A stretch of DNA of 64,000 nt from Candidatus Caccousia avicola (GTDB lineage: Bacteria > Bacillota > Clostridia > Oscillospirales > Acutalibacteraceae): NCBI GenBank assembly GCA_018712435.1, contig DVGZ01000026.1, forward strand, positions 1-64,000. The letters run 5' to 3'. Under the pieces are notes generated by a model. The model had not been told where the DNA came from and did not search any database. It saw nothing but the letters and a program-made list of their open reading frames with translations. The position numbers were made by a program, and so were the translations under genes. Positions 1,535 through 62,438 of the stretch are shown piece by piece (position 1 is the stretch's first letter; the number at the start of each line of letters is the position of its first letter).

Positions 1535-1638
1535 AAGCGGTATTTCCTTTCCATCGTTTTTTGAAACGGAACCCTTCCGTTCCTTTTTTGTACGCTTTAT
1601 CCTACCCTATTTTCACCCAAAAGTAAAGTGACCAGCTC

Positions 1639-1781
1639 ACCAGGCTGAGCCTGGACGCAGATCGCGCAATCGGCCTTCGGCCTCCCGGCGTGGCGGAAAA
1701 AAGCGCGGTCTTTGCTTTCGGCTTCGCCCCGCAAAGCCCGCTTGCCCGGTGTCCCGCGCTGTTTCCATGGAGAGTATAGGG
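1639..1781 (+). repeat. Copy 1 of ~143-bp intergenic direct repeat containing CCAGGCTGAGCCTGG palindrome
   Basis: Nearly identical to 1825-1967 (a handful of mismatches). Confidence 0.9.
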
Positions 1782-1824
1782 AGCTTGGCTATCGTTTTGG
1801 CTGAGCCTGGACACAAGTCGCGCA

Positions 1825-1967
1825 ACCAGGCTGAGCCTGGACGCAGATCGCGCAATCGGCCTTCGGCCTCCCGGCATGGCGGAAAAAAGCGCAGTCTTTG
1901 CTTTCGGCTTCGCCCCGCAAAGCCCGCTTGCCCGGTGTCCCGCGCTGTTTCCACGGAGAGCATGGGA
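1825..1967 (+). repeat. Copy 2 of ~143-bp intergenic direct repeat
   Basis: Nearly identical to 1639-1781; a partial unit start (GGCTGAGCCTGGAC) lies at about 1799. Confidence 0.9.
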
Positions 1968-54813: not shown

Positions 54814-55550
54814 CAAAGAAACGAATTTCCCTGAATTGGACGAAAATTCTCTGGTGGTTCATCTTTCTGAGCATGGCGGTATCGGTCGTATTTATTTCGA
54901 TTGCCATGATCATTGCGCCGGCGGAGCCGGATCCGACGATGCCGTACCGCCGCGTCAAGGGCGACTATGTGCTGATGCTGCTCCAATGCATTGTAGGCGT
55001 TGCGGCGATGCTGCTGCCGAGCCTTCTGCGCCATAAGTGGCAATTGATCATTCCCTCCAAAATGATGGTGCTGTTCGCCGTGTTCCTCTACTGTGCTATC
55101 TTTCTGGGAGAGGTGCGGTCGTTCTATTACAATGTGCCGCACTGGGATACGATTCTGCACACCTTCAGCGGGGCGGTGCTGGGAGCGCTGGGCTTTTCCG
55201 TAATCAATTTCCTCAACCGGACGGATCGCGTGCCCATGAACCTCAGCCCGGTGTTTGTCGCCTTTTTCACATTATGCTTCGCCGTGTTCCTCGGCGTGGT
55301 GTGGGAATTTTATGAGTTCACGGCGGACGGAATTCTGCATACCAACATGCAAAAATTCGCGCTGGAAAGCGGCGAGCCGCTGGTGGGCCGCGCCGCTTTG
55401 ATGGATACCATGAAGGATCTGATTGTCGACACGATCGGCGCGCTGGTGATGGCGGTAATCGGCTACATTTCGATTCGTTATCAGAAGGGCTGGGTGGAAA
55501 AGTTCCAGCTCAGAAGAGAGAAAAAACGGACAAAAAACATCCCCAACTGA
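54810..55550 (+). CDS. Multi-TM membrane protein of unknown function
   Basis: HWDTILHTFSGAVLGALGF, GVVWEFYEFTADGIL, IVDTIGALVMAVIGY. Confidence 0.7.
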   Translation: MTKKRISLNWTKILWWFIFLSMAVSVVFISIAMIIAPAEPDPTMPYRRVKGDYVLMLLQCIVGVAAMLLPSLLRHKWQLIIPSKMMVLFAVFLYCAIFLGEVRSFYYNVPHWDTILHTFSGAVLGALGFSVINFLNRTDRVPMNLSPVFVAFFTLCFAVFLGVVWEFYEFTADGILHTNMQKFALESGEPLVGRAALMDTMKDLIVDTIGALVMAVIGYISIRYQKGWVEKFQLRREKKRTKNIPN

Positions 55551-55601
55551 CGTTTTGCGGGACGATTGTGTAAAATCTCTGTCAACTCGCGCGCAAAGCG
55601 G

Positions 55602-55629
55602 TTGACAATAGCGGGCGGTATGATATAAT
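55602..55629 (+). promoter_or_regulatory. Consensus sigma70-type promoter
   Basis: TTGACA-16 nt-TATAAT. Confidence 0.85.
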
Positions 55630-55635
55630 TACAAT

Positions 55636-56018
55636 CGACATGTGATATGAGTGGCTACAGAGTATCCATGCAAATCTTTCTTCGACCACCTGGGATTTTT
55701 CTCAGGTCAAGGCCATACGGACAGCCGGGTCAACTGCCGAAGGGCGGCGTCAGCCGCCGTTATTGATTGAACCGAAGCACTCGACAATAGAAAGCGGAAG
55801 GTTCAATTTTATGAGTTGGTTCCTTTATAACCGGTGCGCATAGCGTACATCAACTTGTAAAAGGTCAATAAGAGTAGTAAAAGTAAGTATTTGCTATATA
55901 GACTCTGTATCGAACCATCACAGGCGGCTTTCTGCCCGCGGGGTTTTATATCCCTGCGGATGGGGATTGATTTTGACGAACGACAGGCGATGTGCACGGC
56001 GCACATCGCCTGTTTTTT
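55636..56018 (+). ncRNA. Candidate structured non-coding RNA, ~385 nt, class not identified
   Basis: Own promoter and terminator; 8-bp long-range helix TACAGAGT (55656-55663)/ACTCTGTA (55902-55909) plus nested hairpins; no convincing ORF. Confidence 0.7.
55984..56018 (+). terminator. Strong intrinsic terminator
   Basis: CAGGCGATGTGC-ACG-GCGCACATCGCCTG-TTTTTTGTTTTTT. Confidence 0.92.
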
Positions 56019-56094
56019 GTTTTTTCGGGGAGTCCCCGATCATCACCGCAGCGAACCGCCGGAGGGCGGCGCAGAGGAAGAGGAGAGCTTCGGC

Positions 56095-56853
56095 ATGGGA
56101 GAAAAGATGAAATTATACGGCTTCAATAACCTGACCAAGGCGCTGAGCTTTAATATATATGACGTCTGCTACGCGAAAACGGCGCGGGAGCAGCAGGATT
56201 ATATTTCTTATATTGACGAACAGTACAATTCGCAGCGTCTGACCAATATCCTGACGACTCTCACGGAGATGATCGGCGCGAAGGTGCTCAATATCGCCCA
56301 GCAGGACTACGAGCCGCAGGGAGCGTCCGTTACCCTCCTGATCGCGGAGGGGTCGATGGTTCCCGCCGGGCAAACCCAGCTGGCCCATCTCGATAAAAGC
56401 CATGTGACGGTGCACACCTACCCGGAGTATCATCCGGAAACGTTTCTGGCCACCTTCCGCGTGGACATTGACGTGGCGACCTGCGGGGAAATCACGCCGC
56501 TCTCCACGCTCGACTATCTGATCGGCTCGTTTGACTCCGATATCATCACGATGGATTACCGTGTGCGCGGCTTTACCCGCGATGTGAACGGCAAAAAGCT
56601 GTTCCTCGATCACCGCATCACGTCCATTCAGGATTATATTTCCGACGAGATTCTTCGCCGCTATGATACCGTGGACATCAACGTGTACGAGGCGAACCTG
56701 TTCCACACGAAGATGATGCTCAAAGAAATCGATCTCCAGAATTACCTGTTTAAAACGGACGTTTACGAGCTGCCGCCGCGCACGCGGCTGAATATCATGG
56801 ATAACCTGCGCCGCGAGATGATCGAAATTTTCAGCGGCCGGAACATTTACTGA
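56095..56853 (+). CDS. speD: S-adenosylmethionine decarboxylase proenzyme (E. coli SpeD type)
   Basis: [18 protein letters not shown] pyruvoyl cleavage region; [14 protein letters not shown]; start ATG 56095 or 56107. Confidence 0.92.
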
Positions 56854-56866
56854 GGAGGGGAACAAT

Positions 56867-58324
56867 TTGGAGCTTCACAATCAGGAGCGCGCGCCGATTT
56901 ATGAGGCGCTCGAACGATTCCGCCAGATGCGCGTCGTTCCCTTCGATGTGCCCGGCCACAAGCGCGGACGCGGCAACCCGGAGCTGACGCAGCTTCTCGG
57001 GGAACAGTGCGTTTCCATGGACGTCAACTCGATGAAGCCGCTGGACAACCTCTGCCACCCCGTTTCCGTGATCCGGGAGGCGGAGCAGCTGGCCGCGGAG
57101 GCCTTCGGGGCGGCAAACGCCTTTCTCATGGTGGGAGGCACAACCTCGGCGGTGCAGAGTATGGTGCTTTCCGTCGCCAAGCGGGGAGAAAAGATCATCC
57201 TTCCCCGCAACGTGCACCGCAGCGTGATGGGCGCGATGGTGTTGTGCGGCGCGATTCCTGTCTATGTCAACCCGGAATGCGATAACCGTCTCGGTATCCC
57301 GCTGGGAATGAGCGTTTCCGCGGTGGAGAAGGCGATCCGGGAAAATCCGGACGCGAAGGCTGTGCTGGTCAATAACCCGACTTATTACGGCATCTGTTCG
57401 GATCTGCGCGCGATTGTGCGTCTGGCGCATGAGCATGGGATGCTCTGTCTGGCCGACGAAGCGCACGGAACCCATTTCTATTTCGGGGAGGGACTTCCCG
57501 TCTCCGCGATGGCCGCGGGGGCCGATATGGCCGCCGTCTCCATGCACAAATCCGGCGGCAGCCTGACGCAAAGCTCGCTGCTTCTGACCGGCCCGGCCAT
57601 GCAGGAGGGCCATGTGCGGCAGATCATCAATCTGACGCAGACGACGAGCGGGTCGTATCTCCTGCTTTCCAGTCTCGATATTTCGCGGCGCAACCTTGCC
57701 CTGCGCGGAAAAACGGATTTTGAGCGCGTGATCCGGCTGGCGGAATACGCCCGTGAGGAGATCAACGCGATCGGCGGCTATTACGCCTTCTCACGCGAGC
57801 TGGTCAACGGCGACAGCGTCTACGATTTCGACGTGACGAAGCTTTCCGTCAATACGCTCGACGTGGGGCTGGCCGGGATTGAGGTCTATGATCTGCTCCG
57901 CGACGAATATGACATTCAGATTGAGTTCGGCGATCTCGGCAACATCCTGGCCTACATCTCCGTGGGCGACCGTCCCCGGGAGATTGAGCGGCTGGTGAGC
58001 GCGCTTTCCGAGGTGCGCCGCCGCTTCGGGCGCAGCAAGGCGGATCTCATGACGCAGGAGTACATCGACCCGCAGGTTGCCGTTTCGCCCCAGGACGCGT
58101 TCTATGCGCCCAAGGAGTCGCTTCCCCTGCGGGAGACGGCAGGGCGCGTGTGCAGCGAATTTGTCATGTGCTATCCGCCGGGGATCCCGATCCTCGCGCC
58201 GGGCGAGCGCATCACCGATCAGATTCTGGATTATATTGAGTACGCCAAGGAGAAGGGCTGTTCGATGACGGGGCCGGAAAACCCCGAGATCGAACGGTTG
58301 AATGTGCTCAGGGAGGGAGAATAA
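56867..58324 (+). CDS. speA: Orn/Lys/Arg decarboxylase family (arginine decarboxylase)
   Basis: FDVPGHKRGRGNPEL, VNNPTYYGICSDL, AAVSMHKSGGSLTQSS PLP lysine; followed by agmatinase. Confidence 0.88.
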   Translation: MELHNQERAPIYEALERFRQMRVVPFDVPGHKRGRGNPELTQLLGEQCVSMDVNSMKPLDNLCHPVSVIREAEQLAAEAFGAANAFLMVGGTTSAVQSMVLSVAKRGEKIILPRNVHRSVMGAMVLCGAIPVYVNPECDNRLGIPLGMSVSAVEKAIRENPDAKAVLVNNPTYYGICSDLRAIVRLAHEHGMLCLADEAHGTHFYFGEGLPVSAMAAGADMAAVSMHKSGGSLTQSSLLLTGPAMQEGHVRQIINLTQTTSGSYLLLSSLDISRRNLALRGKTDFERVIRLAEYAREEINAIGGYYAFSRELVNGDSVYDFDVTKLSVNTLDVGLAGIEVYDLLRDEYDIQIEFGDLGNILAYISVGDRPREIERLVSALSEVRRRFGRSKADLMTQEYIDPQVAVSPQDAFYAPKESLPLRETAGRVCSEFVMCYPPGIPILAPGERITDQILDYIEYAKEKGCSMTGPENPEIERLNVLREGE

Positions 58325-58325
58325 A

Positions 58326-59186
58326 TTGGATTTTTGGTTTTCCGAAGCCCAGACGCCGAACGTCAAGCTGTCTATCCGCGTGGATCAGCAGCTGTATTCC
58401 GGCAAGAGCGAGTTTCAGCGCATCGACGTGTTTGATTCGCCGGAGTTCGGCCGCTTTCTCACGCTCGACGGCTATATGATGCTCACCGAGAAGGATGAAT
58501 TCATTTATCATGAAATGATCACCCATGTTCCCATGGCGGTGCATCCCAAGGTGAGGGACGTGCTCGTTATTGGCGCGGGAGACGGCGGCGTGATCCGCGA
58601 GCTGACGCGCTATCCCGAGATTGAGCACATTGATATGGCGGAGATCGATCCGCTGGTGGTGGAGGTCTGCAAGAAATATCTGCCGCAGACGGCCTGCCGC
58701 CTCGACGACCCGCGTTTGAGCATTCACTACGAGGACGGTGTGCGGTTTGTCCGCTCCAAGGAGAACTGCTATGACCTGATTATCGTCGATTCGACCGACC
58801 CGTTCGGGCCGGGAGAGGGGCTGTTTACCCGGGAATTTTACGGGAGCTGCTTCAAGGCGCTGCGCGAGGACGGTATCATGGTGAACCAGCATGAAAGTCC
58901 GTTCTATCAGGCGGACGCTGCGGCCTGCCAGCGGGCGCACAAGCGGATTGTGGAATCGTTCCACATCAGCCGCGTCTATCAGGCGCATATTCCGACGTAC
59001 CCGTCCGGCCACTGGCTGTTCGGCTTTGCATCCAAGAAATACCATCCGCTGCACGACCTCAAGGAAACGCAGTGGAATCTGCGCGGCCTGAAATGCCGCT
59101 ACTATACAACAACACTGCACAAGGGCGCGTTTTACCTGCCCGCGTATGTGGAGGAGCTGCTGAAAGATGTTGAACAGGAATATTGA
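58326..59186 (+). CDS. speE: Spermidine synthase
   Basis: DFWFSEAQTPNVKLSIRVDQQLYSGKSEFQ, GAGDGGVIRELTRY, DSTDPFGPGEGLF; TTG start. Confidence 0.95.
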   Translation: MDFWFSEAQTPNVKLSIRVDQQLYSGKSEFQRIDVFDSPEFGRFLTLDGYMMLTEKDEFIYHEMITHVPMAVHPKVRDVLVIGAGDGGVIRELTRYPEIEHIDMAEIDPLVVEVCKKYLPQTACRLDDPRLSIHYEDGVRFVRSKENCYDLIIVDSTDPFGPGEGLFTREFYGSCFKALREDGIMVNQHESPFYQADAAACQRAHKRIVESFHISRVYQAHIPTYPSGHWLFGFASKKYHPLHDLKETQWNLRGLKCRYYTTTLHKGAFYLPAYVEELLKDVEQEY

Positions 59187-60018
59187 AGTTTTTATGTGCT
59201 GTGACAAGGAAGCCGACGAAGCCGCTACCGTGCTGTTCGGCGCTCCCTTTGACTGCACCACGTCTTACCGCCCCGGAACGCGCTTCGGCAGCGGAGCCAT
59301 CCGCCGGGAATCGTTCGGGATCGAGAGCTACAGTCCGTATCAGGACAGAGATTTGCAGGATATCGCGGTGATGGATCTGGGGGATCTCGAGCTTTGTTTG
59401 GGGGACGCGTCCACAGCGCTTTCTCAGATTGAGGAAGCCGCGGAGGAAATTCTGACGGCGGGCAAGCGCCCCTTCCTGCTCGGCGGTGAGCATCTGGTCA
59501 CGCTGGGAGCGTTCCGCGCGGCGGCCCGTCATTTCCCGGAGCTGCATGTGATTCATTTTGACGCGCACGCCGATCTGCGCGACGACTATCTCGGCGCGAA
59601 GCTGTCCCATGCCTGTGTTCTGCGCCGCTGCTGGGAGCTGGTGGGAGATGGAAAAATCTTTCAGTTCGGCATCCGCTCCGGCGACCGCGAGGAATTCCGC
59701 TGGGGCGCGGAGCACGTCACGACCCGGCGCTTCGATTTTGAGGGCCTGGAAGAAACGCTGGACCGTCTGGCGGGAAAGCCCGTCTATTTCACGGTGGATC
59801 TCGATGTGTTGGATCCCTCCGTGTTTCCGGGAACGGGAACGCCGGAGCCGGGCGGCGTGTCCTTTGACGCGCTGCGCCGCGCGGTGACGCTTGTGTGCAG
59901 CCGCGCCAACGTGGTCGCGTGCGACGTCAATGAGCTCAGCCCGCCCTACGATCCCAGCGGGATCTCCACGGCGGCGGCCTGTAAAACCGTGCGCGAGATG
60001 CTGCTGGCTTTGCATTAA
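59167..60018 (+). CDS. speB: Agmatinase
   Basis: GGEHLVTLGAF, VIHFDAHADLRDDY, FTVDLDVLDPSVFPGTGTPEPGG. Confidence 0.95.
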   Translation: MLNRNIEVFMCCDKEADEAATVLFGAPFDCTTSYRPGTRFGSGAIRRESFGIESYSPYQDRDLQDIAVMDLGDLELCLGDASTALSQIEEAAEEILTAGKRPFLLGGEHLVTLGAFRAAARHFPELHVIHFDAHADLRDDYLGAKLSHACVLRRCWELVGDGKIFQFGIRSGDREEFRWGAEHVTTRRFDFEGLEETLDRLAGKPVYFTVDLDVLDPSVFPGTGTPEPGGVSFDALRRAVTLVCSRANVVACDVNELSPPYDPSGISTAAACKTVREMLLALH

Positions 60019-60045
60019 GATAACATTTAAATGGAGGAATAGAAA

Positions 60046-61305
60046 ATGGCAAGAGTTTTGATTATCGGCTGCGGCGGTGTTGCGTCCGTCGCGATTCACA
60101 AGTGCTGCCAGAACAGCGAGGTGTTTTCGGAGATCTGCATCGCAAGCCGCACGAAGTCGAAGTGCGACGCTCTCAAAGAGAAGCTGGAGGGAACGACCAA
60201 AACGAAGATCACCACCGCACAGGTGGACGCCGACCACGTCGATCAGGTAGTTGCGCTGATTCGGGATTATCAGCCCGATCTGGTGATGAACATTGCTCTG
60301 CCGTATCAGGATCTGACGATCATGGATGCCTGCCTGGAGTGCGGCGTGAATTATCTGGATACCGCTAACTACGAGCCGGAGGATCTCTCCGATCCCGCAT
60401 GGCGCGCGCAGTATGAGAAGCGCTGCAAGGAGGAGGGCTTCTCCGCCTACTTCGATTATTCCTACCAGTGGGCTTACAAGGAGAAATTTGAAAAGGCCGG
60501 TCTCACCGCTCTGCTGGGCACGGGCTTTGATCCCGGCGTGACGCAGGCGTACTGCGCTTACGCCCAGAAGCACCTGTTCGACGAGATCGACACCATCGAC
60601 ATTCTCGACTGCAACGGCGGCGATCATGGCTATCCCTTCGCCACCAACTTCAACCCGGAGGTTAACCTGCGTGAGGTGTCCGCTCCCGGCTCCTATTGGG
60701 AGAACGGCCATTGGGTGGAGATCCCCGCCATGAGTATCAAGCGCGAGTACAACTTCAAGGAAGTCGGGGAGAAGGACATGTATCTGCTGCACCACGAGGA
60801 GATCGAGTCCCTCGCCAAGAATATCCCCGGTGTGAAGCGCATCCGTTTCTTCATGACCTTCGGTCAGAGCTATCTCACTCATATGAAGTGTCTCGAAAAC
60901 GTCGGTATGCTCTCCACCGAGCCGGTGGAGTTTGAGGGCCACAAGATTGTTCCGATCCAGTTCCTCAAAGCGCTGCTGCCGGATCCGGCTTCCCTTGGAC
61001 CGCGCACGGTCGGCAAGACGAACATCGGCTGCATCTTCACCGGCCGGAAGGACGGCGTGGAACAGAAAGCCTACATTTACAACGTCTGCGATCATCAGGA
61101 GTGCTACAAGGAGGTCGGCTCGCAGGCCATCTCCTACACCACCGGCGTGCCCGCCATGGTGGGCGCTATGATGCTGCTCACCGGCAAGTGGTCGAAGCCC
61201 GGCGTTTACACGGTCGAGGAGTTTGACCCCGATCCGTACATGGAAGCGCTCAATGAGTGGGGCCTGCCGTGGCAGGTGGACCGCGATCCGGTCCTGGTGG
61301 ATTGA
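60046..61305 (+). CDS. Carboxynorspermidine/carboxyspermidine dehydrogenase (saccharopine dehydrogenase family)
   Basis: ARVLIIGCGGVASVAIHKCCQ, ALPYQDLTIMDACLECGVNYLDTANYE; adjacent to nspC. Confidence 0.92.
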   Translation: MARVLIIGCGGVASVAIHKCCQNSEVFSEICIASRTKSKCDALKEKLEGTTKTKITTAQVDADHVDQVVALIRDYQPDLVMNIALPYQDLTIMDACLECGVNYLDTANYEPEDLSDPAWRAQYEKRCKEEGFSAYFDYSYQWAYKEKFEKAGLTALLGTGFDPGVTQAYCAYAQKHLFDEIDTIDILDCNGGDHGYPFATNFNPEVNLREVSAPGSYWENGHWVEIPAMSIKREYNFKEVGEKDMYLLHHEEIESLAKNIPGVKRIRFFMTFGQSYLTHMKCLENVGMLSTEPVEFEGHKIVPIQFLKALLPDPASLGPRTVGKTNIGCIFTGRKDGVEQKAYIYNVCDHQECYKEVGSQAISYTTGVPAMVGAMMLLTGKWSKPGVYTVEEFDPDPYMEALNEWGLPWQVDRDPVLVD

Positions 61306-62438
61306 TGCAGCCGATCACAGGGGAGATGCGCACGCCGTATTTCCTGGTGGATGAAACGCGGCTCACGCACAATCTGGAAATTCTGCGGGACGTTCAGGAG
61401 CGCGCGGGCTGCAAAATCCTGCTGGCACAAAAGGCGTTCTCGATGTTTGCCGTCTATCCGCTTTTGCGGCAGTATCTCGCGGGCAGCACGGCCAGCGGCC
61501 TGTATGAAGCCCGTCTCGGCCATGAGGAATTCGGAGGGGAAACGCATGTATTTTCCCCGGCTTACCGCGAGGACGAATGGGACGAGCTGCTGCAATACGC
61601 GGATGATATCGTGTTCAATTCCCCGGCTCAGGTGCGCCGCTTTGCGCCGCGCGCCCGCGTTGCCGGGAAATCCTGCGGCCTGCGGCTGAATCCGGAGCAC
61701 TCCACACAGGAGGGGCATGCGATCTACGATCCGTGTTCGCCCGGCTCCCGTCTGGGGACGACGCTTGCCCAGTTTGATGAATCGATCCTTCCGCTGCTCG
61801 ACGGCCTGCATTTCCACACGCTCTGCGAGCAGAATTCCGACGCGCTGGAGGAGACGGTTGCGGCGGTGGAGAAAAAATTCGGCCGCTGGCTTCCTCAGAT
61901 GAAGTGGCTGAATCTCGGCGGCGGCCACCATATCACCCGCGACGATTACGACGTGGAGCGGCTGATCCGTGTGGTGCGCCATTTGAAGGAAACCTACCAT
62001 GTGGAGGTGTACCTGGAACCGGGGGAGGCCGTGGTGCTCAACGCCGGATTTCTGGTGACCAGCGTGCTGGAAACGCTCCAAAACGGCATGGATATCGCGA
62101 TTCTCGATACCTCCGCGGCCTGCCATATGCCGGACGTGCTGGAAATGCCCTACCGTCCGCCGCTGCAGGACGCGGGCCAGCCGGGAGAGAAAGCGCACAC
62201 CTTCCGTCTCGGCGGACCGACGTGTCTGGCCGGGGACGTCATCGGCGACTATTCCTTCGACGCGCCGCTCCGTGAGGGCGACCGCCTTGTGTTTGAGGAT
62301 ATGGCTCTGTATACGATGGTCAAGACCAATACGTTCAACGGCATGGCGCTTCCCTCCATTGTTTGGAGGGACAAGAACGGCAATTGCTTTCTGGTGCGCC
62401 GGTTTGGCTATGAGGATTTTAAGGAACGGCTTTCCTGA
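61305..62438 (+). CDS. nspC: Carboxynorspermidine/carboxyspermidine decarboxylase
   Basis: TPYFLVDETRLTHNLEIL, LLAQKAFSMF PLP lysine, LHFHTLCEQ, TSAACHMPDVLEMPYRP; TGATG overlap with upstream gene. Confidence 0.94.
   Translation: MQPITGEMRTPYFLVDETRLTHNLEILRDVQERAGCKILLAQKAFSMFAVYPLLRQYLAGSTASGLYEARLGHEEFGGETHVFSPAYREDEWDELLQYADDIVFNSPAQVRRFAPRARVAGKSCGLRLNPEHSTQEGHAIYDPCSPGSRLGTTLAQFDESILPLLDGLHFHTLCEQNSDALEETVAAVEKKFGRWLPQMKWLNLGGGHHITRDDYDVERLIRVVRHLKETYHVEVYLEPGEAVVLNAGFLVTSVLETLQNGMDIAILDTSAACHMPDVLEMPYRPPLQDAGQPGEKAHTFRLGGPTCLAGDVIGDYSFDAPLREGDRLVFEDMALYTMVKTNTFNGMALPSIVWRDKNGNCFLVRRFGYEDFKERLS

Follow-up and report, generated by a model that had tools for sequence, protein, structure and literature searches.

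Among the closest described systems is the spermidine riboswitch, a SAM-I variant (Salvail et al. 2023) with a four-stem architecture, 13 representatives and a narrow distribution (PMC10853860), located upstream of ldcC, speB, speD and speE. Polyamine biosynthesis is also controlled by a leader RNA in the speF motif with its speFL leader, known in proteobacteria and acting by ribosome stalling on a leader peptide, and in Borrelia burgdorferi premature 3' ends of a transcript for polyamine transport become more frequent with spermidine, the potB 5' RNA there being an ORF-internal fragment. The raiA motif RNA is a large structured RNA of the Bacillota that is trans-acting (PMC11477304) and not fixed to polyamine genes. 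Rfam family RF02440 (SpF59_sRNA, ldcC RNA) is a 54-nt model that Rfam classes among the sRNA genes of Streptococcus. In S. pneumoniae the F59 RNA (SN20, srn235, Spd-sr49) has a lung-fitness entry and is located between SP0915 and SP0916, with a length of 327 nt (869478–869804). Agmatine is produced by SP_0916, an arginine decarboxylase, and the paper describing the enzyme (PMC7531197) contains no mention of an sRNA or a riboswitch.

The RNA described here lies in a 64,000-nt stretch of DNA from Candidatus Caccousia avicola, which was analysed as a whole and is referred to as the window. Like the SAM-I variant it is associated with polyamine biosynthesis genes and has a terminator, but it has about eleven helices instead of four stems and is present at more than 140 loci. 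No match to the SAM clan was obtained in positions 55400–56200 even at E<=10, and none in 15 homologous loci at the gathering threshold. As judged by comparison of the homologous leaders, the RNA, which occurs widely among Gram-positive bacteria, is probably an OFF riboswitch that senses polyamine and terminates transcription in the 5' leader of a speD-ldc/adc-speE-speB-carboxynorspermidine synthase-nspC operon.

The leader RNA and its polyamine genes

All features are on the plus strand. The promoter TTGACA-16-TATAAT at 55602–55629 matches the consensus at 12/12 positions and has a TG ahead of the -10 box, and a promoter with at least 9/12 matches is found about 49 nt 5' of helix P2 in 108/123 homologous leaders, compared with 28.3 expected. 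The RNA extends from approximately 55637, as judged from the -10 box, to the U-tract of an intrinsic terminator at 55982–56018 (stem 55982–56014), the 5' arm of which contains CAGG (55984–55987) and GATGTGC (55989–55995). The predicted minimum free energy of 55637–56018 is -142.7 kcal/mol, and that of shuffled sequences -108.7 +/- 5.9 (z = -5.8). The sequence-only reading had described a large structured RNA of ~385 nt with its own consensus promoter and strong terminator, distinct from the housekeeping RNAs; this description holds, all pairings that it quoted are present in the sequence, and neither tmRNA, RNase P, SRP nor 6S RNA gave an Rfam match above threshold in the window. It had also called the RNA free-standing, which is rejected, as the RNA is a cis-acting 5' leader with a polyamine gene downstream in all testable loci, and the terminator is its expression platform.

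The first gene of the operon is speD (56095–56853), encoding S-adenosylmethionine decarboxylase (TIGR03331, 399 bits), and its ATG is preceded by a Shine-Dalgarno-like sequence, AGGAAGAGGAG, at 56075–56085. The speD frame is open upstream through the terminator, giving an ORF of 320 aa from a TTG at 55891 (55891–56853, +), and translation probably begins at the ATG at 56095 and not at this TTG. An Orn/Lys/Arg decarboxylase (PF01276), for which several substrates are possible, follows at 56867–58324, and 58302–62438 contains speE, agmatinase (speB), carboxynorspermidine synthase and nspC; the NCBIfam matches to speE, agmatinase and nspC are above cut-off, and carboxynorspermidine synthase is the best match for its gene but below the curated cut-off.

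The strand downstream of the oriented core was searched in 148 loci, of which eight end within 265 nt and 140 could be tested. In 140/140 a polyamine-related gene, in the same orientation as the RNA, is the first one recognised, so the connection to polyamines that had been raised from the single operon was right. The first genes are of four types, namely potA (43), ldc/adc (42), speD (38) and carboxynorspermidine synthase (17), the last being followed by nspC, and the start codons have medians of 320–400 nt from the core. In the sampled potA loci PotA is supported by NCBIfam, and relatives of PotB, PotC and PotD are found downstream. One RNA serving two routes of synthesis as well as uptake is a classic sign of a metabolite-sensing leader, and since only polyamines are the common product of these genes, the sensed metabolite would be a polyamine. 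In one locus (L107) a gene for a P-II-like nitrogen regulator (1557–1952, minus strand) lies between the RNA and potA, which is second there, suggesting that this lineage couples polyamine uptake to its nitrogen status.

The riboswitch could respond to a different compound of the pathway, i.e. SAM, decarboxylated SAM, MTA, agmatine, putrescine, arginine, lysine or carboxyspermidine, in line with the use of SAM by speD and of arginine or lysine by ldc/adc. This alternative is nevertheless quite unlikely, because leaders with only potABCD or with carboxynorspermidine synthase-nspC share no SAM, lysine or arginine step with the others, and the four operon types have no metabolites in common but polyamines.

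Relation to RF02440 and distribution

It had been stated from the window alone that no known family fits, and since RF02440 is the only Rfam match in the window this needs correcting. The Rfam covariance-model search places RF02440 at 55683–55740 (58 nt; 66.5 bits, E 9.5e-10, gathering score 37.2), in the 5' domain of the leader, and the same family matches 15/15 sampled homologues and occurs in 41/391 genomes of the class of the source organism, with one copy in each. The suggested likeness to the raiA motif is not borne out, as the window has no Rfam match to raiA and the linkage to polyamine genes is constantly in cis, and a stand-alone ncRNA was rejected on the same grounds. The RF02440 model takes in the domain of P2, P3 and P4 and the beginning of the conserved segment that follows, which amounts to about one quarter of the conserved fold, and the 327 nt of pneumococcal F59 are about the length of the aptamer plus terminator of the leader RNA. 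F59 is presumably the same RNA as that of the window over its full length.

That the RNA is a trans-acting sRNA gene, as annotated for SpF59, with an incidental position beside the polyamine genes, is in line with the Rfam type ('Gene; sRNA') and with the detection of F59/srn235 as an RNA linked to lung fitness in S. pneumoniae. We find this very improbable, given the same-strand linkage to four polyamine gene types in all 140 loci, the covariation of the terminator arm with the aptamer, and the location of F59 directly upstream of SP_0916, the arginine decarboxylase gene. The lung-fitness record is compatible with a riboswitch but does not need one. Instead of a stand-alone sRNA gene, the RNA is in every case a same-strand leader of polyamine genes, and its antiterminator extends into the aptamer; RF02440 would probably be better rebuilt as a Cis-reg family. 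In the literature searched on F59 and RF02440 no description was found of its aptamer, antiterminator, linkage to polyamine genes or wider distribution.

Most loci were supplied by an exact-match search with the core pattern, and conservation of the core is therefore partly a result of how the loci were selected, which does not apply to the features lying beyond the core, namely helices, terminators, gene neighbours and antiterminator pairing. The core pattern is found in more than 118 stretches among the matches listed for named genomes, and the carriers listed are Oscillospiraceae, Lachnospiraceae, Faecalibacterium, Blautia, Acidaminococcus, Phascolarctobacterium, Paenibacillus, Bacillus, Neobacillus and one spirochaete MAG. 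A full-length covariance model of the RNA (R1, 196 positions) matches 39/147 genomes of the order and 26/398 of the phylum, one match per genome, and also recovers divergent copies with a core that the exact pattern would miss. The polyamine neighbours recur at most loci that R1 detects, also among the weak matches. Six loci with low R1 scores (L196–L201, 23–45 bits) include one upstream of speD (L199, 31.8 bits) and one near ldc (L200), hinting at divergent variants of the aptamer. In the spirochaete MAG (CALXOJ010000004), which is outside Bacillota, the RNA precedes speD, and this copy (L088) may be due to horizontal transfer or mis-binning. One copy is located on the Paenibacillus cellulosilyticus plasmid NZ_CP054613 (2204050–2204232), a non-mobilizable replicon of 2.7 Mb, and the core-pattern search found none in viral contigs or phages; an RNA of phages or mobile elements was rejected.

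The conserved fold

The conserved part of the leader is, by comparison of homologues, an aptamer-like fold of ~225 nt with about eleven helices, extending beyond the 5' domain covered by Rfam. In an alignment of 58 diverse homologous leaders 94.0% of the cells at 56 pairs are paired, the structure having been written after inspection of the same alignment on which the pairs were counted. Covariation among homologues, named in the sequence-only reading as a check, is present, with two-sided changes at 29/56 pairs and at 11.7 +/- 2.0 in shuffles. None of 500 shuffles reaches any of five structure measures, and slid registers are 31–50% paired.

P1 closes the fold at long range and is variable, with the 5' strands TGTGAT (55641–55646) and TACAGAGT (55656–55663) paired to ATCACA (55917–55922) and ACTCTGTA (55902–55909) respectively. 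In 124 homologues the pairing of the 5' flank to its own 3' flank is better than to permuted partners (z = -10.2), confirming the long-range closing helix noticed in the window. The P1 strand ACTCT has a second conserved, local partner, GAGT at 55872–55875, which competes with the long-range helix, and the hairpin P12 (GAGTAGTAAA...TTTGCTA...CTC) is located at 55872–55905. P2 (55683–55731) is formed by GACC/GGTC (55684–55687/55728–55731), contains the invariant core GGCCATACGGACAGCCGGGTC, and encloses P3 (55688–55693/55702–55707) and P4 (GGC/GCC, 55711–55713/55724–55726). Its consensus is nGACC/GGGTCn, where the first pair is U-A 20, G-C 17 and C-G 15 times in the 58 leaders.

The hairpin P6 (GGCGGC/GCCGCC, 55743–55758) has two-sided changes at all six pairs. 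It is followed by the long-range helix P7, TTATTGA/TCAATAA (55760–55766/55865–55871), which closes the P8–P11 domain and is 97.8% paired; RNAalifold on 136 leaders missed P7, which was placed manually on the basis of its conserved complementary strands before its pairs were counted. P8 (TTGAACC/GGTTCAA, 55767–55806) shows compensatory changes at 5/6 aligned pairs. P9, TTTTATGAG/CTTGTAAAA (55807–55815/55854–55862), has the consensus TTTTATAAG/CTTGTGAAA across leaders, is 98.6% paired and encloses both P10 (55818–55821/55829–55832), which has two-sided changes, and P11 (55834–55838/55844–55848), which varies in length and was left out of the pair count, the pairs in the window being checked. P7 and P9 are nearly invariant and are thus supported by complementarity rather than by covariation. 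The nested hairpins GGCGGC-GTCA-GCCGCC and ATTGAACC/GGTTCAAT that had been pointed out in the window are conserved helices with compensatory changes, and the hairpin CCGCGGGG/CCCTGCGG does pair in the sequence but is outside the conserved aptamer. Leaders of the potA type (L035, L056, L064, L099 and others) often have an additional hairpin, located between P2 and P6, and none was seen in the speD and ldc leaders inspected.

The size of ~225 nt is large for an aptamer, which counts against reading the RNA as a riboswitch. The leader could also be a cis-acting attenuator in which the same switch responds to a protein or another macromolecule, such as an RNA-binding polyamine sensor or an antiterminator protein, and not directly to a ligand; the computed evidence is for the fold and the switch, the invariant nucleotides could bind a protein, and the P-II-like regulator gene stands between RNA and potA in one locus. 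This is unlikely, because no regulator gene is seen travelling with the RNA, downstream of which enzymes or transporters of polyamines are encoded, because the RNA spans Bacilli, Clostridia, Negativicutes and a spirochaete MAG, and because the fold has about 30–40 invariant columns, in our judgement typical of aptamers.

Terminator, antiterminator and the proposed switch

An intrinsic terminator is found 3' of the aptamer in 125/128 leaders, and it is located ahead of the start codon in 124/124. Three leaders of the speD type (L080, L102 and L119) have the aptamer but no recognisable terminator, and regulation may there be translational instead. The 5' arm of the terminator carries the complement of the aptamer strand GCACAUC-AA-CUUG, with CAAG or CAGG present in 104/120 arms. 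In the window this strand, GTACATCAACTTG at 55845–55857, is part of P11 and P9, and its alternative partner is the 5' arm, with CAGG (55984–55987) pairing to 55854–55857 and GATGTGC (55989–55995) to 55845–55851. The 5' arm pairs with the aptamer strand of its own leader at -12.64 kcal/mol, compared with -10.52 for arms permuted among species (z = -11.1, 0/20000), a permutation that removes shared ancestry only in part, and the same test on the 3' arm shows no effect. When the leader is scanned in windows of 16 nt, z is -12.2 at the antiterminator strand and -5.0 in an overlapping window, with no window below -2.0 elsewhere along the leader. Within classes z is -5.0 for speD, -6.1 for ldc and -6.3 for potA, and -0.6 for the lys1 group of 17 closely related sequences; the effect in the speD, ldc and potA groups separately indicates more than a difference between groups.

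Since P11 and P9 both use the antiterminator strand, the aptamer and the antiterminator are mutually exclusive, and the pairing of the terminator arm to the aptamer strand has, from the compared leaders, the character of an antiterminator/terminator switch. Folds of the window leader enforced in the OFF and ON states have energies of -127.8 and -123.8 kcal/mol, which are close together but above the unconstrained minimum of -142.7, and are thus by themselves no proof of switching. Attenuation of the operon by translation of a leader peptide, as in proteobacterial speF, has a precedent in that such control of polyamine genes exists elsewhere (PMC10319736), but is extremely improbable here and was rejected by a uORF scan, since an SD-led ORF of at least five codons before the end of the aptamer is present in only 6/128 leaders, and it is the RNA helices that are conserved and not codons.

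The leader combines a conserved, covarying aptamer-like fold, an expression platform that excludes the aptamer, and genes sharing one metabolite, all of them features of riboswitches. According to the riboswitch reading, RNA polymerase would start just after 55629 and transcribe the aptamer (55641–55922). When polyamine is scarce, GUACAUC-AA-CUUG (55845–55857) would leave P11 and P9 and pair with the 5' arm of the terminator, leading to read-through into speD, and when polyamine is abundant the aptamer would be stabilised with the strand kept in P9 and P11, so that the terminator forms, giving the ~385-nt RNA with the operon off. We infer direct binding of the ligand, and the OFF direction would follow from the architecture and from genes that make or import the molecule. 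The ligand is most likely a polyamine. Spermidine is favoured because the SpeD/SpeE and carboxyspermidine routes both end in it and because it is among the substrates of PotABCD, with putrescine or norspermidine as possible alternatives.

The RNA would fairly likely constitute a second class of polyamine (spermidine) riboswitch, structurally unrelated to the first and far wider in distribution, serving synthesis and import across Bacillota including the pneumococcus, where it is catalogued only as a small RNA. Neither such a second class nor a description of this RNA as a riboswitch was found in the open-access literature searched, and one may exist elsewhere. The conserved fold is not described for the potB RNA of Borrelia burgdorferi, and the lack of a uORF sets the leader apart from speF.

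Polyamine riboswitches have long been claimed without convincing proof. The authors of the rare validated spermidine class stated that there are surely more classes to discover (PMC10853860). If the present reading is true, a common polyamine riboswitch with a complete switch mechanism would be at hand, an Rfam sRNA would be re-filed as a cis-regulator, and the balance between making and importing polyamines would be explained in many gut Clostridia, in Paenibacilli and probably in pneumococci.
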